Positions 5,019-14,428 of a stretch of 44,318 nt of DNA are shown here, piece after piece. The position numbers and the translations under genes are program-made. The first letter of the stretch is position 1. Each line of letters starts with the position of its first letter. The DNA is from Spirochaetales bacterium. GTDB lineage: Bacteria > Spirochaetota > Spirochaetia > DSM-2461. Below the pieces are notes generated by a model that did not search any database, was not told the DNA's origin, and saw only the letters and a list, made by a program, of their open reading frames with translations. The stretch lies in assembly GCA_028532905.1 (NCBI GenBank), contig JAQQAM010000265.1, forward strand, positions 1-44,318. The letters run 5' to 3'.

Positions 5019-6284
5019 TTATTTTGATGCTTTATATGCTTCAATTTCCTTCTGCATGAATGCAGCCGCTTCTTCAGGAGTCATGATTCCCACACCGACA
5101 GAGTCCTGGGCTTCAAATAGTTTTCCTGCGATTTCCTGAGGTAATCCCTGATCCGAGATTGTATAACTGCCGTAGGTATTCAAATCATCAATCATCATTG
5201 AAGTCATAACCAGTCTTTCGGGTATACTGTTATCTTTTCTGGGAACAGGCTGTTTAATTAAGGCTCCATAGGTATTGATACTTTCAGGCGAGTAGAACCA
5301 TTCAATAAAAGTAATGGCCGCCTCCAGTTCCCTGTCACTCAGATTGGCATTCAGCTGAAGCATCTCAACAAATCCTGACATTCTGTTGCCTTTCGGGCTC
5401 AAGGGCAGTTTGAAATAGCCGTAAAGATCGGGATCCTGTTCATCATTGTATATATTTGACTCCATCCAGGGACCTTCAATATCAATAACCCCGTCCCCTG
5501 CGTAGAGCAGTGATTTTGCATCACTGCCGCCAAGGGTTACAAAACCTTCAGGCAGATAACCCAGATCCACATATTCCTTGAACTTGGCGAAAGCCTTGAT
5601 AACAGGTTCAGAATTCCATGAACTGTCAAGAGCAGCCAGTCTGTCATGTTCGGCGGAACCACCGTACATCTCTATCAGCGCCTCCACGAAACGCATCAGA
5701 TGCCAACCGCCCTTACCGCAGAGAATCAGAGGGGTATAACCTTTAGATTTTAACGTAGCCAGAACTGTTTCAAACTCTTCAAATGTTTCGGGAGCTGTAA
5801 CGCCGCATTCCTCAAATATATCTTTTCTGTAGAACATTCCGATCATGGCAATACTTGTGGGAACACCTGCCAGCTGACCTTCAAGAGTTGCAAGACTTAA
5901 AGCAGATTCATCATACTTCTGACTCCAGTTATTCTCTTTCGCATAATCAGACAGATCATAGGAAAGGCCGTTTTCAGGATAGAAGGAACCGAGTGTTCCA
6001 CCCCAGTTGAACCACATATCAGGAAGAGAACCGGAAGAGGCAGCTACCATCAACTGGTTTTTATGATCATCAGTGGAGTTTAAAACTGCGTTGATCTGAA
6101 TATCAGGATGTGCAGCATTAAAATCTGCAACAACTCTTTCAGTCAGCTCTTTCCTGCTGGACAAATTCCACCAGGTTAGTTCTGTAACAGAATCTGAAGC
6201 CTCTTCTGCTCCTCCGGAAGCCCATATGAGATTACCGGAAAGTAAACTGACAACCAACAACAACAAAGTTACTTTTTCTTTCAT
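5019..6284 (-). CDS. Extracellular sugar-binding protein (UgpB/MalE type)
   Basis: Signal peptide MKEKVTLLLLVVSLLSGNLIWASGGAEEA; family text TELTWWNLSSRKELTERVVADFNAAHPDIQINAV. Confidence 0.92.
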   Translation of the reverse strand: MKEKVTLLLLVVSLLSGNLIWASGGAEEASDSVTELTWWNLSSRKELTERVVADFNAAHPDIQINAVLNSTDDHKNQLMVAASSGSLPDMWFNWGGTLGSFYPENGLSYDLSDYAKENNWSQKYDESALSLATLEGQLAGVPTSIAMIGMFYRKDIFEECGVTAPETFEEFETVLATLKSKGYTPLILCGKGGWHLMRFVEALIEMYGGSAEHDRLAALDSSWNSEPVIKAFAKFKEYVDLGYLPEGFVTLGGSDAKSLLYAGDGVIDIEGPWMESNIYNDEQDPDLYGYFKLPLSPKGNRMSGFVEMLQLNANLSDRELEAAITFIEWFYSPESINTYGALIKQPVPRKDNSIPERLVMTSMMIDDLNTYGSYTISDQGLPQEIAGKLFEAQDSVGVGIMTPEEAAAFMQKEIEAYKASK

Positions 6285-6633: not shown

Positions 6634-7275
6634 ATGCCTGAATCTCACAAATCCGACATACTGATTATCGGCGCCGGTGCCTCGGCCGCCGCCTTTGCCT
6701 GGAAACTCTGCGACAAAGGATAATAAGATCACCTGCCTGGAGCAGGGAGACTGGACACGGCCCTGGGCGGAGTGGTGGGCAAACCTGTCCCCTGGGGAAG
6801 GGATCACCACAGGGAGTTCAGCAGAAGAATCGGCAAACAGGCAACTCTTCTGATTCTGGTGGATGATCTACCGGAGCAGGAAAACAGAGTTGTTCTGGAT
6901 TCTGATCTGACAGATTCCAACGGTATACCCGCTCCGAAGCTGATTTACCGCTACAGTGAGAATACGAAAAAAATGCTGGACTTCGGCGTAGAGAGAGCGG
7001 TAGAGCTTATGAAGGCGGCAGGTGCCGAAGAGGTTCTGATCAATCCCCGGATCAGAGAAGTCTTTCATCTGATAGGAACCGCCCGTATGGGGCTGAATCG
7101 GGAAACATCTGTGGTCAGCCAGTGGGGACAGTCCCATGATATATCCAATCTGTTTATCATAGATGGAAGCATCTTTGTCACAGGAGGGGCGGCTAACCCC
7201 ACATCCACCATTCAGGCTCTGGCCCTCAGGATTGCCGATCATATCGACCGCAACAGAAGGAATATTCTGAAATGA
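6634..7275 (+). pseudogene. GMC-family oxidoreductase pseudogene (frameshift plus large internal deletion)
   Basis: N-terminal Rossmann start MPESHKSDILIIGAGASAAAFAWKLCDKG hits TAA at 6721. The +1 frame continues as NKITCLEQGDW. The GMC C-terminal domain (PWGRDHHREF...NRVVLDSDLTDSNGIPAPKLIYRYSENT...HLIGTARMG...NLFIIDGSIFVTGGAANPTSTIQALALRIADHI) follows within about 60 nt in another frame, so the central domain is missing. Confidence 0.85.
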
Positions 7276-7673
7276 AAAACATTGAGAGACAGCAGATAGA
7301 ACAGATCTTGGATATGATCATGGACATCATCATTCCCGCAGGGGAGTCGGGAGAACCGCCGGCTTCGGGCAGCAGGGCTACCGGATTCCTCAGGAATATT
7401 CTGGAGACCCCGGATGACACAGAAGAGCTTGGCCTCCTGCTATTGAAGATCTCCGGCACAGAGCATCTGACTGAAAAGGCACTCCGGGAGGTGGAATCGG
7501 AGAATCCCCCGGCATTTGCCCGGCTGGTGGCTCTGGTGTATGAGGCTTATTACGGCGATCCGGAGATTGTTGAAAAACTCGGTCTTCCCGGTCCGCCCCA
7601 GCCGGGAGGCCATGAGATGAAGCCCTTCGACACCGAACTTCTGAAACCGGTTCTAAGCCGGAGCGGGAAATAA
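7272..7673 (+). CDS. Gluconate 2-dehydrogenase subunit 3-like protein (possibly orphaned)
   Basis: 133 aa, overlaps the GMC stop. MKNIERQQIEQILDMIMDIIIPAGE... resembles the small subunit that accompanies GMC dehydrogenases. Confidence 0.55.
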   Translation: MKNIERQQIEQILDMIMDIIIPAGESGEPPASGSRATGFLRNILETPDDTEELGLLLLKISGTEHLTEKALREVESENPPAFARLVALVYEAYYGDPEIVEKLGLPGPPQPGGHEMKPFDTELLKPVLSRSGK

Positions 7674-7780: not shown

Positions 7781-8002
7781 ATAATCCTCCAATAAAAGTT
7801 TTCAATCACTTATTATCAACCCGTTTTTTTCATCTTCACATGTCTAAAAATGTTCTGGAGATACACAAAACTGAACAGTTTTTGAAGAGGATAAAAAAGT
7901 GCAAAAATTTGCAAGTTCCGTCTCTGTACCAGAGTTAAATCATAGTTTTAAGCTTATATAAACAAAGTATTTAATCGGATGAATCACGGGAGGTTCACAT
8001 AT

Positions 8003-9145
8003 ATGAAATTACTTGACGACATTCTGGTTCTGGACTTCAGCCAGTATCTGGCCGGTCCCTGGACAGCAGTAAAACTGGCCGATTTCGGAGCTCGTGTCAT
8101 AAAGATAGAAAGGCCGGGTTCAGGAGATAACAGCAGACGGCTGATCCTTTCCAACCTGCTCATTGACGGGGACAGTTCGGTGTTCCACTCCATGAACAGA
8201 AACAAGGAGAGCTATGCTGCCAACCTGAAGGATACGGATGATCTGCGCAAGGTGAAGGAACTGATAAAAAAGGCGGATGTGATGATAGAAAACTTCCGCC
8301 CCGGCATTATGGAAAAGATAGGACTGGGGTATGAGGAAGTCAAAAAACTCAACCCGGGCATCATTTATACATCCGTAACAGGTTATGGTGCCGAAGGACC
8401 TTTGAAGGGAAAACCCGGACAGGATCTGCTGGTGCAGAGTCTCAGCGGTATTCCCTGGCTCAACGGCAATGCGGACCAGGCTCCCGTCCCTGTGGGTCTG
8501 GCGGTGGTGGATCAGTTCACCACAGCCAATGCGGTTCAGGCCATTCTGGCATCTCTGATCAGACGGAGCAGAACCGGGGAGGGAGCCCGGGTAGAGCTCA
8601 GTCTTATTGAATCGGCCATCGACTTTCAGTTTGAGGTTCTTACAACCTACCTCAATAACGGAGAGAAGATGTCTGAACGCTCCAAAGTGAACAATGCCCA
8701 TAATTTTCTGGGTGCCCCCTATGGCATATACAAGACAAAGGACTCCTTTATTGCCCTCTCCATGGGTCCCCTTCAGGTTCTGGCGGATCTACTGGAATGC
8801 GAAGGACTGAAACGTTACAGCGATCCGGATGAGTGGTTCGACAAACGGGATGAAATCAAACAGACCCTGGCGGAACATATGCCGGGCAGAACCACAGAGG
8901 AGTGGCTGGCCGTACTGGAACCGGCGGACTACTGGTGCGCCCGGGTCAATACAACCAGGGAACTCCTGGAGGATGAAGGCCTGAGCAGGGCGGATATGAT
9001 TCAGGAGATTAAACGGAAAAACGGGACGACCCTGAAAACCACCAGAACCCCCGTCCGGATTGACGGGGACAAGCTGTTCTGCTCCAAAGGCGCTCCTGTG
9101 CTGGGAGAAGACACAGACGCCATCAATAAAGAGTTCGGTCTTTAG
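8003..9145 (+). CDS. CaiB/BaiF (family III) CoA-transferase
   Basis: MKLLDDILVLDFSQYLAGPWTAVKLADFGARVIKIERPGSGD...NRNKESYAANLKD...DVMIENFRPGIMEKIGLGYEEVKKLNPGIIYTSVTGYG. ATG at 8003 preferred over 7979 because of the upstream GGGAGG. Confidence 0.93.
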   Translation: MKLLDDILVLDFSQYLAGPWTAVKLADFGARVIKIERPGSGDNSRRLILSNLLIDGDSSVFHSMNRNKESYAANLKDTDDLRKVKELIKKADVMIENFRPGIMEKIGLGYEEVKKLNPGIIYTSVTGYGAEGPLKGKPGQDLLVQSLSGIPWLNGNADQAPVPVGLAVVDQFTTANAVQAILASLIRRSRTGEGARVELSLIESAIDFQFEVLTTYLNNGEKMSERSKVNNAHNFLGAPYGIYKTKDSFIALSMGPLQVLADLLECEGLKRYSDPDEWFDKRDEIKQTLAEHMPGRTTEEWLAVLEPADYWCARVNTTRELLEDEGLSRADMIQEIKRKNGTTLKTTRTPVRIDGDKLFCSKGAPVLGEDTDAINKEFGL

Positions 9146-9157
9146 GGGGAGGGAAAG

Positions 9158-10321
9158 ATGATACAACTGAAAGGAATGACATGGTCCCATGACAGAGGGA
9201 TTAAACCCCTGCTGGCAGCCTCGGAACTGTTCAAAAAAGAACATCCGGAAGCGGAAATCTCCTGGGATGCGCGGTCCCTGTCTGATTTTGAACTGTTCCC
9301 TCTGGAAGAGCTGGCAGACAAATACGATTTTATAATGATTGACCATCCCCATATCGGTACAGCCTATGCGCAGAACCTTCTCCTGCCTCTGGACAGTCTT
9401 CTGGACCCGGAATTCCTGGCGGATCAGAAAAAAAACAGTGTGGGACAGAGCTTTGCCAGTTACACATGGGAGGGGAAACAGTATGCCCTTCCTGCTGATG
9501 CAGCCGCCCAGGTCTGTGCCTACCGGAAAGACCTGATGGGAGACCATATTCTGCCTGTGACCTGGAAGGATTTTTTCAGTCTGGCAGAATCCCTGCCATC
9601 ATCAGTTGTTCCGGCCATCCCCTTTGTGCCGGTTCATGCCTATTCCAGCTTTTTCACCCTCTGTTCCCAGATGGGAACAGAACCCTTCTGGAGTGACGGC
9701 TCCGAACTGAATATTGAGACGGGAGTCAAAGTACTGGAGCTGCTTCAGAGAATACTGGCGGCATCCCATCAGGACTCCTTCTACTGGGACCCCATCAATA
9801 TTCTGGACAGGATGGGAGAGCGGAGCGAAATAGCCTACACCCCCCTCTGCTACGGCTATTCCAACTACGCCAGAGACGGCTACCTGGATCACACAGTCCT
9901 CTTCGGAAACATCCCCTCGGATACGGGACAACCGGAAGGCAGTATGATCGGGGGGGTGGGTCTCTCCATATCCTCTGGCTGTAAACACACTGAACTGGCC
10001 GCATCCTTTTTGTCCATGACAACAGCTGCGGATTTCCAGAAGACCCATTTCTTTGAGAATGACGGGCAGCCGGGGCACAGAGCATCCTGGATGGATGAGA
10101 AGGTAAACAGAGAATGCAACGGCTTCTTCTCTCAGACCCTGCAGACACTGGACTGCGGTTCCATGCGCCCCCGGTTTGACGGTTATATAGATTTTCAGGC
10201 ACAGGCCGGCGAAATGATCAGAGAAGAGATTCTCAAAGGGCGCGGACAGTACCGGGCACTGGTTGAGAAACTGAATGCCCTGCTGCCCCGGCTGTGCCGG
10301 ATTCCGATTGAAGGAGAGTAA
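9158..10321 (+). CDS. Extracellular-solute-binding-protein-fold protein without a signal peptide
   Basis: N-terminus MIQLKGMTWSHDRGIKPLLAASELFKKEHPEAEISWDARSLSDFELFPLEELADKYDFIMIDHPHIG starts directly in the mature SBP fold; no hydrophobic leader; no adjacent permease. Confidence 0.75.
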   Translation: MIQLKGMTWSHDRGIKPLLAASELFKKEHPEAEISWDARSLSDFELFPLEELADKYDFIMIDHPHIGTAYAQNLLLPLDSLLDPEFLADQKKNSVGQSFASYTWEGKQYALPADAAAQVCAYRKDLMGDHILPVTWKDFFSLAESLPSSVVPAIPFVPVHAYSSFFTLCSQMGTEPFWSDGSELNIETGVKVLELLQRILAASHQDSFYWDPINILDRMGERSEIAYTPLCYGYSNYARDGYLDHTVLFGNIPSDTGQPEGSMIGGVGLSISSGCKHTELAASFLSMTTAADFQKTHFFENDGQPGHRASWMDEKVNRECNGFFSQTLQTLDCGSMRPRFDGYIDFQAQAGEMIREEILKGRGQYRALVEKLNALLPRLCRIPIEGE

Positions 10322-10324
10322 CAA

Positions 10325-11095
10325 ATGGACGGAGACATCAGATTCACCAGAAAAAACAGTACCTGCACCCTTATCATTAACAGACCGCAAAAGATGAACT
10401 CTATTACCAAAGCCATGGGAGAGCAGCTGCAGGCTTATGCAGATGAAATCAACCGAGATAAGGAGATCAAAGCCGTTATCATTACAGGAGAGGGTGACAG
10501 AAGCTTTTCAACAGGGAGTGACCTCAAGATGTTCGATCAGTATGGTTCCCCTTTTGAGCTGAGGAACAGAACCGATTACTGTGACGCCCTGCGCTCCATC
10601 CGGAAGCCTCTGATTTCACTTGTCAGGGGGTACGCTCTGGGCGGGGGATTTGAAATGGTCCTTGCCAGCGATATCCGTATAGCCGCTCCCTCGGCCCGAT
10701 TTGCCGTGTCTGAAATAAAAAACGGCTGGATTCCCGGCAGCGGCCTGATTCAGATATTGAGCCGGAATATAGGTTATCACAAGGCGGCAGAGCTGATCTT
10801 CACAGCCCGTATGATCGAAGCTGAAGAAGCTCTGCAATTCGGTTTCATCAATGCCGTAGTACCCGATGAGGAGATTGAGGACTATGTTCAGGAGATGGCC
10901 GACCGGATTGGAACCTTCTCGCCGGTTGCAGCACAGCTGGCCAAACAGGATCTGAATGCCTCCATGAATATGGGACTGGATATGGGTCTGCAGTATGAAA
11001 AAGATCTGGCGGTCTTCAGCATGACCACAGAAGACAGCAAAGAGGGCATGAGAGCCTTCAGTGAAAAAAGAGAACCCCGTTTTACGGGGGAATAA
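10325..11095 (+). CDS. Enoyl-CoA hydratase/isomerase family protein
   Basis: Crotonase text NRPQKMNSITKAMGEQL, SFSTGSDLKMFDQY, GYALGGGFEMVLASDIRIAAPSARFAVSEIKNGWIPG. Confidence 0.93.
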   Translation: MDGDIRFTRKNSTCTLIINRPQKMNSITKAMGEQLQAYADEINRDKEIKAVIITGEGDRSFSTGSDLKMFDQYGSPFELRNRTDYCDALRSIRKPLISLVRGYALGGGFEMVLASDIRIAAPSARFAVSEIKNGWIPGSGLIQILSRNIGYHKAAELIFTARMIEAEEALQFGFINAVVPDEEIEDYVQEMADRIGTFSPVAAQLAKQDLNASMNMGLDMGLQYEKDLAVFSMTTEDSKEGMRAFSEKREPRFTGE

Positions 11096-11114: not shown

Positions 11115-13481
11115 ATGGCTTTAAAAACAATTCTGTTAAGCGGCAATGACTGGCAGATGGAGGGTATGAGGCCCGGCCAGGGAGAAGGAGAAGAATTCCA
11201 CCTGGTTCCTGCCGAATATCAGGGAACCACCTTCAGCTGGAACCATGCCAGCGTTCCCGGTGACGTATATACAGATCTGCATAAGGCGGGAGAGATGGAC
11301 GATCCCTACTTCGGCCGTAATATGCACAGATGCAAGTGGGTTCAGGATAAGGAGTGGTGGTATACCCGCCGTTTCAATATGGATGAAGCCTATAAAGGAA
11401 AGCAGATCCGTCTTGTCTTTGAGGGCGTGGACTACAGCTGTGAAATCTGGTTGAACGGAACAAAGCTGGGGGGACACGAAGGCATGTTCTCCTCCTTTGA
11501 GTTTGATATCTCCTCCCTGGTCAGCTTTGAAGACTGGCGGGGCGGAGCCAATATCATCATGATCAAACTGAACCCTCCCCCCAAGAACTACCGGAACTGC
11601 GGCGGCAAGAAAGTGAACTTTTCGGGAGACTATTTTACCGGTCTGGTTCCCTTCGGCATCTGGCGGGATGTAAAACTGGTGGTCAATGATGCCGTCCGGA
11701 TCTGCCATGTACAGAGTGACTTTACAGTTCAGGATTCCTCAGCGGCAGTCCGCCTGGTCTACGAAATTGAAAACAACAGCGGCTGTGAACAGGAGGCGGA
11801 GCTGAGAACTCTCTTCACCCCCCATAACTTTACAGGGGACAGTAGAACGGAAATCAGTGTGAAGAGTAAACTGAAACCCGGTCTCAACCGCCTGAAAGCC
11901 GCATCAGAGATCGCCTCACCGGAACTCTGGTGGCCCTGGGATATGGGAGATCAGAATCTCTACCGTATGACCACCGAACTGACTGTAAAGGGAACGGCTG
12001 CCGACCGGACAGAGGAGGTTGTAGGCATCAGGGAAGTGAAAATGGAAATGAATCCCGGCTTCACTCCCGAAGAAAACGAGTACCCCTGGACCTTTATGAT
12101 CAATGGAAACAGACATTTCCTCAGATCCGCCTGCTGGGGCGGCCAGCCCTCCTTCCTCTACGGCAGGAATTCCCTGAAAAAGTATGAAGACCGGCTGGCT
12201 CTGGTCAAAGAGTGTAATATAAACAACCTGAGGATCTTCGGTTGGCATCCCCCGGAAATTCCCGATTTCTACAGAATCTGTGATGAACTGGGTATCACCG
12301 TATGGACCAATTTCACCCTGGCCACACAGGCCTATTCTCTGGAGCCGGATTTTGTGGAGGGAGTGCTTCATGAGTGCCGGGCAACTGTAAAGGAACGGCG
12401 GAATCATCCCTCCCAGATTTTCTGGATGGGGGGAGAAGAGGTTTTCTTCTCAGGCGCCCATGAGACCAGCGGCAACAAGGAGCTGATGAATATTATCGGA
12501 GACGCAGTGGGTGAACTGACGGCGGTTCCCTATGCTCCGGCCTCCCCTCTCAGCTCGCCCTCGGCTGTAAAAATGGGATTTAAACCGAAAGAATCCATCC
12601 ACGCCAACGAGCATTACTATCAGGGGGGAAAGGAGTTTATGGAAGAGTACTATCCGGCTCTGGACTGCGCCATCATCCCCGAACTTACAGCCGCCTCGGC
12701 CCCCAATGTGGAAAGCTTGAAAAAATTCATCCCCGAAGACGAGCTCTGGCCCATGGGACTGAGCTGGGGATACCACTGGGCCGATCTGGATATTCTGAAG
12801 AATCTGAACTTTGAAGTCTTTGATGATTACAGAATGGGTTCACTGGAGGAATTTGTGGAAGCCACCCAGATTGCCCAGGGAACGGTTCTGCAGTTTGCCC
12901 TGGAGACCTACCGGCGCCGGAAGCCGAAAATGAGCGGAGTGGCTCTGTGTCACTTTATTACCCACTGGCCCGATATCAAGTGGGGGCTTCTGGATTACTA
13001 CGGCGTGAAAAAGGAATCCTTTGACTTTGTCCGGCAGTCCTATCAGCCCCTGCTGCCCAGTATTCAATTTGACCGCCGCCGCTGGAAGCCGGGAGAGCTG
13101 TTCAGCTCTGAGGTCTGGATCGTCAACGACTATCACAGAGACTATGAAGAAGCGGTCTGTTCCTGGAACATTCTGTATAACGGAAAGGTTCAGTCAGAAG
13201 GGCAGAGAAGCTCACTGACAATTGCCGGAGACAGTTCACAGAAAATTGCAGATATGAAATGGCAGCTGCCTGAAGACAGCAACGGTACTTTTGATATTGC
13301 CATTGAAATCACTGACAGGACGGGAACTGTTTTGAGCAGCAACCGTTACAAACTGCTGGTGGGAGATCAGGAAGCTGCCAAAAAACAGAGCCTGAAGTAT
13401 CTGGCGGAAAGTCAGGAACGGGTAAAAAAATACGGGTTGAGTACCTACAGATACTGGCCGGAGCACGGGGAACAGGAATAA
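11115..13481 (+). CDS. Glycoside hydrolase family 2 (beta-mannosidase-like)
   Basis: ATG at 11115 after AAAGGATG. NWAS-like sandwich start (FSWNHASVPGDVYTDLHKAGEMDDPYFGRNMHRCKWVQDKEWWYTRRF), TIM-barrel text (NNLRIFGWHPPEIPDFYRICDELGITVWTNF; RRNHPSQIFWMGGEE). Confidence 0.88.
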   Translation: MALKTILLSGNDWQMEGMRPGQGEGEEFHLVPAEYQGTTFSWNHASVPGDVYTDLHKAGEMDDPYFGRNMHRCKWVQDKEWWYTRRFNMDEAYKGKQIRLVFEGVDYSCEIWLNGTKLGGHEGMFSSFEFDISSLVSFEDWRGGANIIMIKLNPPPKNYRNCGGKKVNFSGDYFTGLVPFGIWRDVKLVVNDAVRICHVQSDFTVQDSSAAVRLVYEIENNSGCEQEAELRTLFTPHNFTGDSRTEISVKSKLKPGLNRLKAASEIASPELWWPWDMGDQNLYRMTTELTVKGTAADRTEEVVGIREVKMEMNPGFTPEENEYPWTFMINGNRHFLRSACWGGQPSFLYGRNSLKKYEDRLALVKECNINNLRIFGWHPPEIPDFYRICDELGITVWTNFTLATQAYSLEPDFVEGVLHECRATVKERRNHPSQIFWMGGEEVFFSGAHETSGNKELMNIIGDAVGELTAVPYAPASPLSSPSAVKMGFKPKESIHANEHYYQGGKEFMEEYYPALDCAIIPELTAASAPNVESLKKFIPEDELWPMGLSWGYHWADLDILKNLNFEVFDDYRMGSLEEFVEATQIAQGTVLQFALETYRRRKPKMSGVALCHFITHWPDIKWGLLDYYGVKKESFDFVRQSYQPLLPSIQFDRRRWKPGELFSSEVWIVNDYHRDYEEAVCSWNILYNGKVQSEGQRSSLTIAGDSSQKIADMKWQLPEDSNGTFDIAIEITDRTGTVLSSNRYKLLVGDQEAAKKQSLKYLAESQERVKKYGLSTYRYWPEHGEQE

Positions 13482-13549: not shown

Positions 13550-14428
13550 CTATTTTCCGCTGTTTCTGAATCCTGTGGGAGAGATATGGACATTCTTCTT
13601 GAAGAAGGATGAAAAATGGTATTGATTGGAAAATCCCAGCTCCCGGGCAATCTCCTTTACCGGCAGATCGGACCGGGACAGCAGCTCAATGGATTTCTCC
13701 ACCAGAATTTTCTTCAGATACTGATTGGGAGTGCAGTCCATGTACTTCTTGAAGAGACGGCTCATATAGGAACTGTCAATATTACAGCGCAGAGCAATTT
13801 CCGAAACCTGAATCATGCTGTTTACATTGTTCTCCATATACTCCCGGCAGCGGACAAAGGAGCTGTAGGAGTGATTGTAGGGCTTATTGATGGAACGGTT
13901 CTGGTACACCATATACACCAGTGCCCGGAAGAGATTGTCCATAATTTCTCTGGAATAGGGAGAGCTGCTCATCCCCTCCTCCAGAATATTCCGGAACACC
14001 CCGTAGATTCGGGCCGGCTCCTGAACAAAGGTCGCTCCGGCGGTAATCTTTGTAATATGGCCGCCCAGTTCGGTTTCGGGATGACAGAGAAAAATGATGC
14101 TGATCTTCTCCAGGTTGGAGTCCTCATCCACCCAGTAGGAATGGGGTGTATGGGGAGGAAAACCGAAGACCATTCCCGGCAGCAGATTCCACTCTTCATT
14201 TTCCAGCCGGAACTTTCCCGAACCGTCAATAATGTATTCCAGTACATAATAGGGATAATCGGATCTGCTGATCTGATAATCGGTGGTACATTTGTTATAA
14301 TTTCCCCAGACAATGATAAAGTCATCATATTGATCTTCATCCACCGGGTTATAAAAATGCTTGTTCACCTCAAGACAGGAGGAGGAGTCCCCCTCTTCAA
14401 ATCCGTCGTCTACAATACGTTCATCCAT
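13550..14428 (-). CDS. AraC-family transcriptional regulator with N-terminal cupin domain
   Basis: Cupin-like GSGKFRLENEEWNLLPGMVFGFPPHTPHSY; HTH CNIDSSYMSRLFKKYMDCTPNQYLKK...VKEIARELGFSNQYHFSSFFKKNVHISPTGFR. Confidence 0.93.
   Translation of the reverse strand: MDERIVDDGFEEGDSSSCLEVNKHFYNPVDEDQYDDFIIVWGNYNKCTTDYQISRSDYPYYVLEYIIDGSGKFRLENEEWNLLPGMVFGFPPHTPHSYWVDEDSNLEKISIIFLCHPETELGGHITKITAGATFVQEPARIYGVFRNILEEGMSSSPYSREIMDNLFRALVYMVYQNRSINKPYNHSYSSFVRCREYMENNVNSMIQVSEIALRCNIDSSYMSRLFKKYMDCTPNQYLKKILVEKSIELLSRSDLPVKEIARELGFSNQYHFSSFFKKNVHISPTGFRNSGK

Follow-up and report, generated by a model that had tools for sequence, protein, structure and literature searches.

The solute-binding proteins (SBPs) of sugar ABC transporters, such as the trehalose/maltose-binding protein 1eu8 and LpqY (7ape) among the SBP_bac_1/SBP_bac_8 proteins, are defined by two features, a leader and a partnering permease and ATPase. 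The Bug (TctC) orphan solute receptors of Bordetella and its relatives are abundant SBPs that often have no adjacent transporter, and they are exported with leaders. In LpqY, Asp80 and Arg404 contact trehalose, and the R404A mutant has lost binding (PMC7949145). The fold can also be recycled, and cyclohexadienyl dehydratase is a precedent for an enzyme built on it (PMC7683729). Two metabolic systems are also relevant here. The carnitine genes CaiB and CaiD place a CoA-transferase and a crotonase in one operon. The non-phosphorylative L-fucose and L-rhamnose pathways draw on sugar dehydrogenases, lactonases, enolase-superfamily dehydratases, SDR enzymes and FAH hydrolases. To our knowledge, the classical form of these pathways includes neither a CoA-transferase nor a cytosolic SBP-fold protein.

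Here we analysed a window of 44,318 nucleotides from a Spirochaetales bacterium (contig JAQQAM010000265.1), in which an SBP-fold protein without a leader, SBPx, is encoded between a CoA-transferase and an enoyl-CoA hydratase. Judging from its sequence and gene context, SBPx probably has a so far undescribed cytosolic role in the breakdown of sugar acids. The genes of the region are as follows.

8003–9145, + strand: type III (CaiB/BaiF) CoA-transferase (PF02515, 3e-98)
9158–10321, + strand: SBPx, the leaderless SBP-fold protein studied here, 387 aa (SBP_bac_8/SBP_bac_1)
10325–11095, + strand: crotonase-family enoyl-CoA hydratase (PF00378, 1e-57)
11115–13481, + strand: GH2 beta-mannosidase-like glycosidase, no leader (PF22666/PF02837/PF00703)
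13550–14428, − strand: AraC-family regulator with a cupin sensor domain, convergent (PF12833, PF02311)

SBPx begins at an ATG preceded by a strong Shine-Dalgarno sequence (GGGGGAGGGAAAGATG), and its two Pfam matches (SBP_bac_8, 6e-14; SBP_bac_1, 3e-13) are both above the curated cut-off. The first-pass annotation of this DNA placed it 12 nt after CaiB and 3 nt before the crotonase, and the coordinates agree, with CaiB ending at 9145 and the crotonase starting at 10325. The same annotation began CaiB at 8003, where the ATG has a Shine-Dalgarno sequence and is the likely start; the mechanical open reading frame begins at 7979. The GH2 glycosidase, which has an alternative GTG start at 11061 and matches beta-mannosidase 5n6u at 1.7e-58, is very likely the fourth gene of the operon. 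It is possible that the AraC-family regulator controls these genes. No permease or ATPase is encoded within the operon on the SBPx strand, again as annotated, and the nearest permeases lie on the opposite strand alongside a leadered SBP at 5019–6284.

The neighbourhood is a carbohydrate island rather than a fatty-acid one. The window also encodes ABC sugar systems, an FGGY kinase, a xylose-isomerase-like protein, a Gfo/Idh/MocA oxidoreductase and regulators of the LacI and DeoR types. The acyl-CoA setting of the first-pass description gives way to one of carbohydrates and sugar acids. Upstream of CaiB, a GMC oxidoreductase reduced to its C-terminal domain (6772–7275, + strand, 167 aa) is next to a 133-aa protein with no Pfam match (7272–7673, + strand), and together they look like a sugar or alcohol oxidase pair cut short. 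Only one CoA_transf_3 gene was found in the genome, and it is the CaiB located 12 nt from SBPx. This proximity of the only such gene, and the recurrence of the pairing in other phyla, are more than would be expected by chance.

We next consider the leader, measured as the best 11-residue mean of Kyte-Doolittle hydropathy. This value is 1.14 for SBPx and 3.03–3.08 for the three other SBPs of the window, which have leaders as first annotated. An in-frame CaiB stop codon (9143–9145) lies four codons upstream of the SBPx ATG, so that a longer start is impossible and no leader can be added. The same holds across the family, with no hydrophobic leader in any of 46 homologues (best value at most 1.44, compared with at least 2.33 in seven leadered control SBPs). 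The homologues start 2–9 residues ahead of a conserved GMTWxH motif (n = 46). A conserved upstream start that restores a signal peptide was looked for in these 46 sequences and none was found; the alternative starts reach at most 1.92, still below the controls. From these data the best reading is that SBPx is a resident cytosolic protein.

Within the spirochaete-side genomes sampled, SBPx occurs only in the window genome and in G017, another genome of the same family, where a 58% identical homologue lies, as in the window, between CaiB and the crotonase, and a GH2 gene precedes the three. Elsewhere it is found in 18 of 388 Verrucomicrobiota genomes, in 21 of 150 genomes of the Opitutaceae-type family of G343, and in one of 43 Bacillota genomes. 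Matches were also present in 146 plasmid records, nearly all with at least 80% query coverage and 31–42% identity. Their hosts are mostly rhizobia, with Azospirillum, Roseibium, Streptomyces, Persicobacter and Rufibacter also represented. Viral contigs and phages were searched for relatives, and none were found. Inside one genome the family is far from ordinary SBPs by sequence comparison; on S. meliloti pSymB, for example, the SBPx homologue scores 8e-174 and the next SBP 1e-13. A candidate from a Bacillota MAG (L034) was rejected as an ordinary leadered SBP with permeases. In another Bacillota genome (G745, L120, 3506–5152, − strand), SBPx lies between two enolase-superfamily acid dehydratases, and its frame there seems to be broken or duplicated.

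Gene context was compared in 51 loci from six phyla, 35 of them from Verrucomicrobiota; the counts that follow are of loci and not of independent events. CaiB lies within the retrieved stretch in 41 of the 51 loci, and in 33 it is on the same strand within 1.5 kb. It is adjacent to SBPx in five of the six phyla, the exception being a single Bacillota locus. An enoyl-CoA hydratase (crotonase) or a MaoC hydratase is present in 36 of the 41 CaiB-bearing loci. The first-pass annotation proposed a survey for the grouping of CaiB, leaderless SBP and crotonase; with a crotonase or MaoC hydratase as third member, this grouping is conserved. Adjacent CaiB and SBPx genes overlap in 20 of 32 pairs, mostly by 4 nt, and they do so whichever gene comes first, a pattern that suggests the two proteins are made in matched amounts. 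Only one of the 51 loci has an ABC permease within 1.5 kb on the SBPx strand, and it belongs to a transporter that comes with an RbsB-type SBP of its own; homologues routinely found beside permeases, with leaders, would have spoken for an uptake function. The proposal of a cytosolic SBP-fold protein with a role other than uptake is thus supported, both by the missing leader in all 46 homologues and by the missing permeases.

The recurrent neighbours, assigned by family, are L-fuconolactonase-like amidohydrolases, L-rhamnose mutarotase (RhaM), RhaT-type symporters, SDR dehydrogenases, aldose 1-epimerases, talarate/galactonate/rhamnonate-dehydratase-like enzymes, FAH hydrolases and Gfo/Idh/MocA oxidoreductases. 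LacI regulators, beta-propeller lactonases, alpha-L-fucosidases and sulfatases are also found. Many of these are the gene families of the non-phosphorylative L-fucose and L-rhamnose pathways, and they place SBPx in the breakdown of sugar acids and not simply in acyl-CoA metabolism. The regulators usual in these clusters are IclR, LacI and AraC. The window GH2 is 52–57% identical to GH2 proteins of other SBPx clusters (L077, L078, L094 and L123; Opitutales-type genomes, G017), so GH2, CaiB, SBPx and the crotonase may have been transferred together from one phylum to another.

Some SBPx clusters also contain a second SBP_bac_1 family, SBP2, with the motif IAxRxFGPFE, which is leaderless in the four members inspected. 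In Persicobacter and Rufibacter it neighbours the second of two CaiB genes, and in Opitutaceae it follows RhaT. The copies are listed by locus.

L037, 10445–11674, + strand: SBP2
L038, 10670–11794, + strand: SBP2
L039, 429–1613, − strand: SBP2
L080, 11901–13073, + strand: SBP2
L125, 4280–5446, − strand: SBP2

Apparent tandem CaiB-CaiB fusions, with two CoA_transf_3 domains in one open frame of 766–792 aa, were seen in G380, G432, G899 and G884, where the fusion is next to, or divergent from, SBPx (L077, L079, L123 and L124).

Both enzymes encoded beside SBPx keep catalytic-type residues. The CaiB Asp (D149, counted from 7979) is invariant in 21 relatives and aligns with its counterpart in solved transferases. 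In the crotonase, both active-site Glu positions (E110 and E130) are conserved in alignments to solved hydratases. The closest PDB entries to this CaiB are formyl-CoA and succinate-hydroxymethylglutarate transferases, and it is far below every NCBIfam equivalog cut-off, including L-carnitine CoA-transferase (95.7 bits, cut-off 413). The operon resembles carnitine CaiB/CaiD in having the same two enzyme families with catalytic-type residues kept, and it would share the logic of CoA shuttling. However, it differs in its sugar-catabolic setting, in the extra leaderless SBP and in having no CaiC-like ligase noted nearby. Across the 51 loci the neighbours are sugar genes, rather than the CaiT, CaiC and CaiA partners of a carnitine or betaine substrate. 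By analogy with carnitine, we infer that CaiB and the crotonase can together remove water from a hydroxy acid, or add it, with CoA only on loan.

In profile comparisons SBPx is like the sugar ABC-transporter SBPs over nearly its whole length. The family profile matches 1eu8 (E = 1.4e-19, profile positions 53–370) and LpqY (4e-15). About 30 positions are invariant in the alignment of 46 sequences, including W9, H11, R13, W36, D57, D62, H63, D114, Y234, Y237, Q304, W311 and R337. Of these, D62 in the cleft and R337 at the hinge align with the LpqY residues Asp80 and Arg404. The position of LpqY Asn134 is not retained and is instead an invariant Ala (A116). On sequence grounds, the pocket is most simply read as a sugar cleft committed to a single class of ligand, though the invariant residues would suit pure binding equally well. 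An AlphaFold model built from five sequences has a pLDDT of 46, too low to be of use. SBPx differs from the transporter SBPs in having no signal peptide in any member and no cognate permease or ATPase, and in being co-translated with CaiB. As neither defining feature was found, SBPx should not be classed as a transporter component. It is like the Bug receptors in lacking an adjacent transporter, but those are leadered and belong to another family.

Six genomes carry SBPx without a detectable CoA_transf_3 gene (G343, G344, G345, G881, G891 and G859); several of these are drafts or MAGs, and three close relatives agree. In these genomes SBPx is directly beside a lactonase-like amidohydrolase, or beside an SDR and an enolase-superfamily acid dehydratase. 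RhaT accompanies the amidohydrolase arrangement in one genome and in the partial locus L033. The CaiB-less proteins present in the alignment retain the invariant residues, and in the tree they nest within CaiB-bearing clades, so the loss of CaiB looks derived. SBPx therefore appears to have a job that does not need CaiB and is not merely its subunit; an obligate subunit role is weakened by these six genomes, several of them drafts. The enolase-type dehydratases near SBPx in some of these loci fit a dehydration or hydration role for the CaiB and crotonase pair.

Our main reading, with a probability of roughly 0.4, is that SBPx is a cytosolic enzyme on a recycled SBP fold that acts on a sugar acid. 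It has kept the two-lobed sugar cleft of an SBP and lost the export signal. Its one fixed ligand would most likely be an aldonate, or a keto or CoA derivative of one, and SBPx itself would most likely catalyse a reaction one step from CaiB, as an SBP-fold isomerase or lyase. In the window, the GH2 glycosidase would free a sugar in the cytosol, which would then be oxidised to the aldonate. CaiB may load CoA onto the aldonate, and the crotonase could eliminate or add water on the thioester, much as CaiB and CaiD act on carnitine. The CoA would then be handed back to the next acid. In related clusters without the CaiB pair, an enolase-superfamily acid dehydratase is encoded near SBPx.

Retention of SBPx without CaiB favours an enzyme, as does the precedent of cyclohexadienyl dehydratase and MqnD for catalysis on this fold, although the former derives from amino-acid-binding proteins, and SBPx belongs to a separate branch, the MBP-like group. 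On the other hand, the clusters between them already encode enzymes for dehydration, lactone hydrolysis and oxidation, with no obvious missing step. A somewhat less probable but serious contender is a non-catalytic partner of the CoA-transferase, which either captures a scarce cytosolic sugar acid for CaiB or acts as a regulatory subunit closing over it. CaiB would thereby receive a hydrophilic substrate that its own fold does not select. The near-universal pairing with CaiB, the tight 4-nt overlaps in both orders and the conserved cleft all suit such a partner, as do the clusters with two CaiB genes that also have a second leaderless SBP (L037 and L038). Against it are the six genomes, several of them drafts, in which no CoA_transf_3 was detected and whose aligned SBPx members keep the invariant residues; we also know of no cytosolic SBP carrier for comparison. 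Co-divergence does not help the partner, as SBPx and CaiB distances correlate (r = 0.70) no more strongly than those of SBPx and other cluster genes (Gfo/Idh, IclR and ECH; 0.56–0.86), and the correlation is not evidence of contact. We consider an enzyme more likely than a passive partner.

The SBP fold changes shape upon binding and a regulator of the IclR, LacI or AraC type is usual in the clusters, so SBPx might be a sugar-acid sensor in the cytosol whose ligand-bound form signals to the local transcription factor. This is improbable, since the regulator families are unrelated between loci, several bind sugars through domains of their own (the AraC cupin in the window, the LacI periplasmic-binding domain), and SBPx is co-translated with an enzyme rather than with a regulator. 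Pfam and NCBI-style annotation would make SBPx an ordinary exported SBP with a misread start, or one leaving the cell without a leader. Such a protein is very hard to reconcile with the upstream stop codon, the uniform starts before GMTWxH, the low hydropathy of all alternative starts and the lack of a dedicated permease, and we rejected it as largely refuted. Least probable of all is a drifting relic, an SBP that has lost its leader and transporter. Both are indeed gone, but some 30 positions remain invariant across phyla at 32–57% identity to the window protein. This conservation, together with retention over long divergence, implies strong selection and refutes a relic.

The SBP fold and SBP-fold enzymes were already known; what we did not find described is an MBP-type family without a leader that is fixed beside CoA-transferases in sugar-acid clusters. 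A literature search returned no account of CaiB paired with an SBP that lacks a leader, and one using guessed, uncertain S. meliloti locus tags for SBPx returned no paper. A broader and rather doubtful proposal is that bacteria have repeatedly moved sugar-catching SBPs (SBPx and at least SBP2) into the cytosol as substrate-handling parts of CoA-dependent sugar-acid pathways. With CaiB and crotonase or MaoC, these would form a CoA-recycling alternative to the enolase-type sugar-acid dehydratases.

Homologues of SBPx on rhizobial megaplasmids (including S. meliloti pSymB), in Streptomyces and in Bacteroidota are publicly labelled "extracellular solute-binding protein" or "ABC transporter substrate-binding protein". 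If our reading is true, this standing misannotation would be corrected, and a step or a partner would be added to the catabolism of deoxy-sugars and sugar acids. SBPx would also be an example from nature of an uptake receptor that became a metabolic protein, and S. meliloti is one tractable host for testing it.
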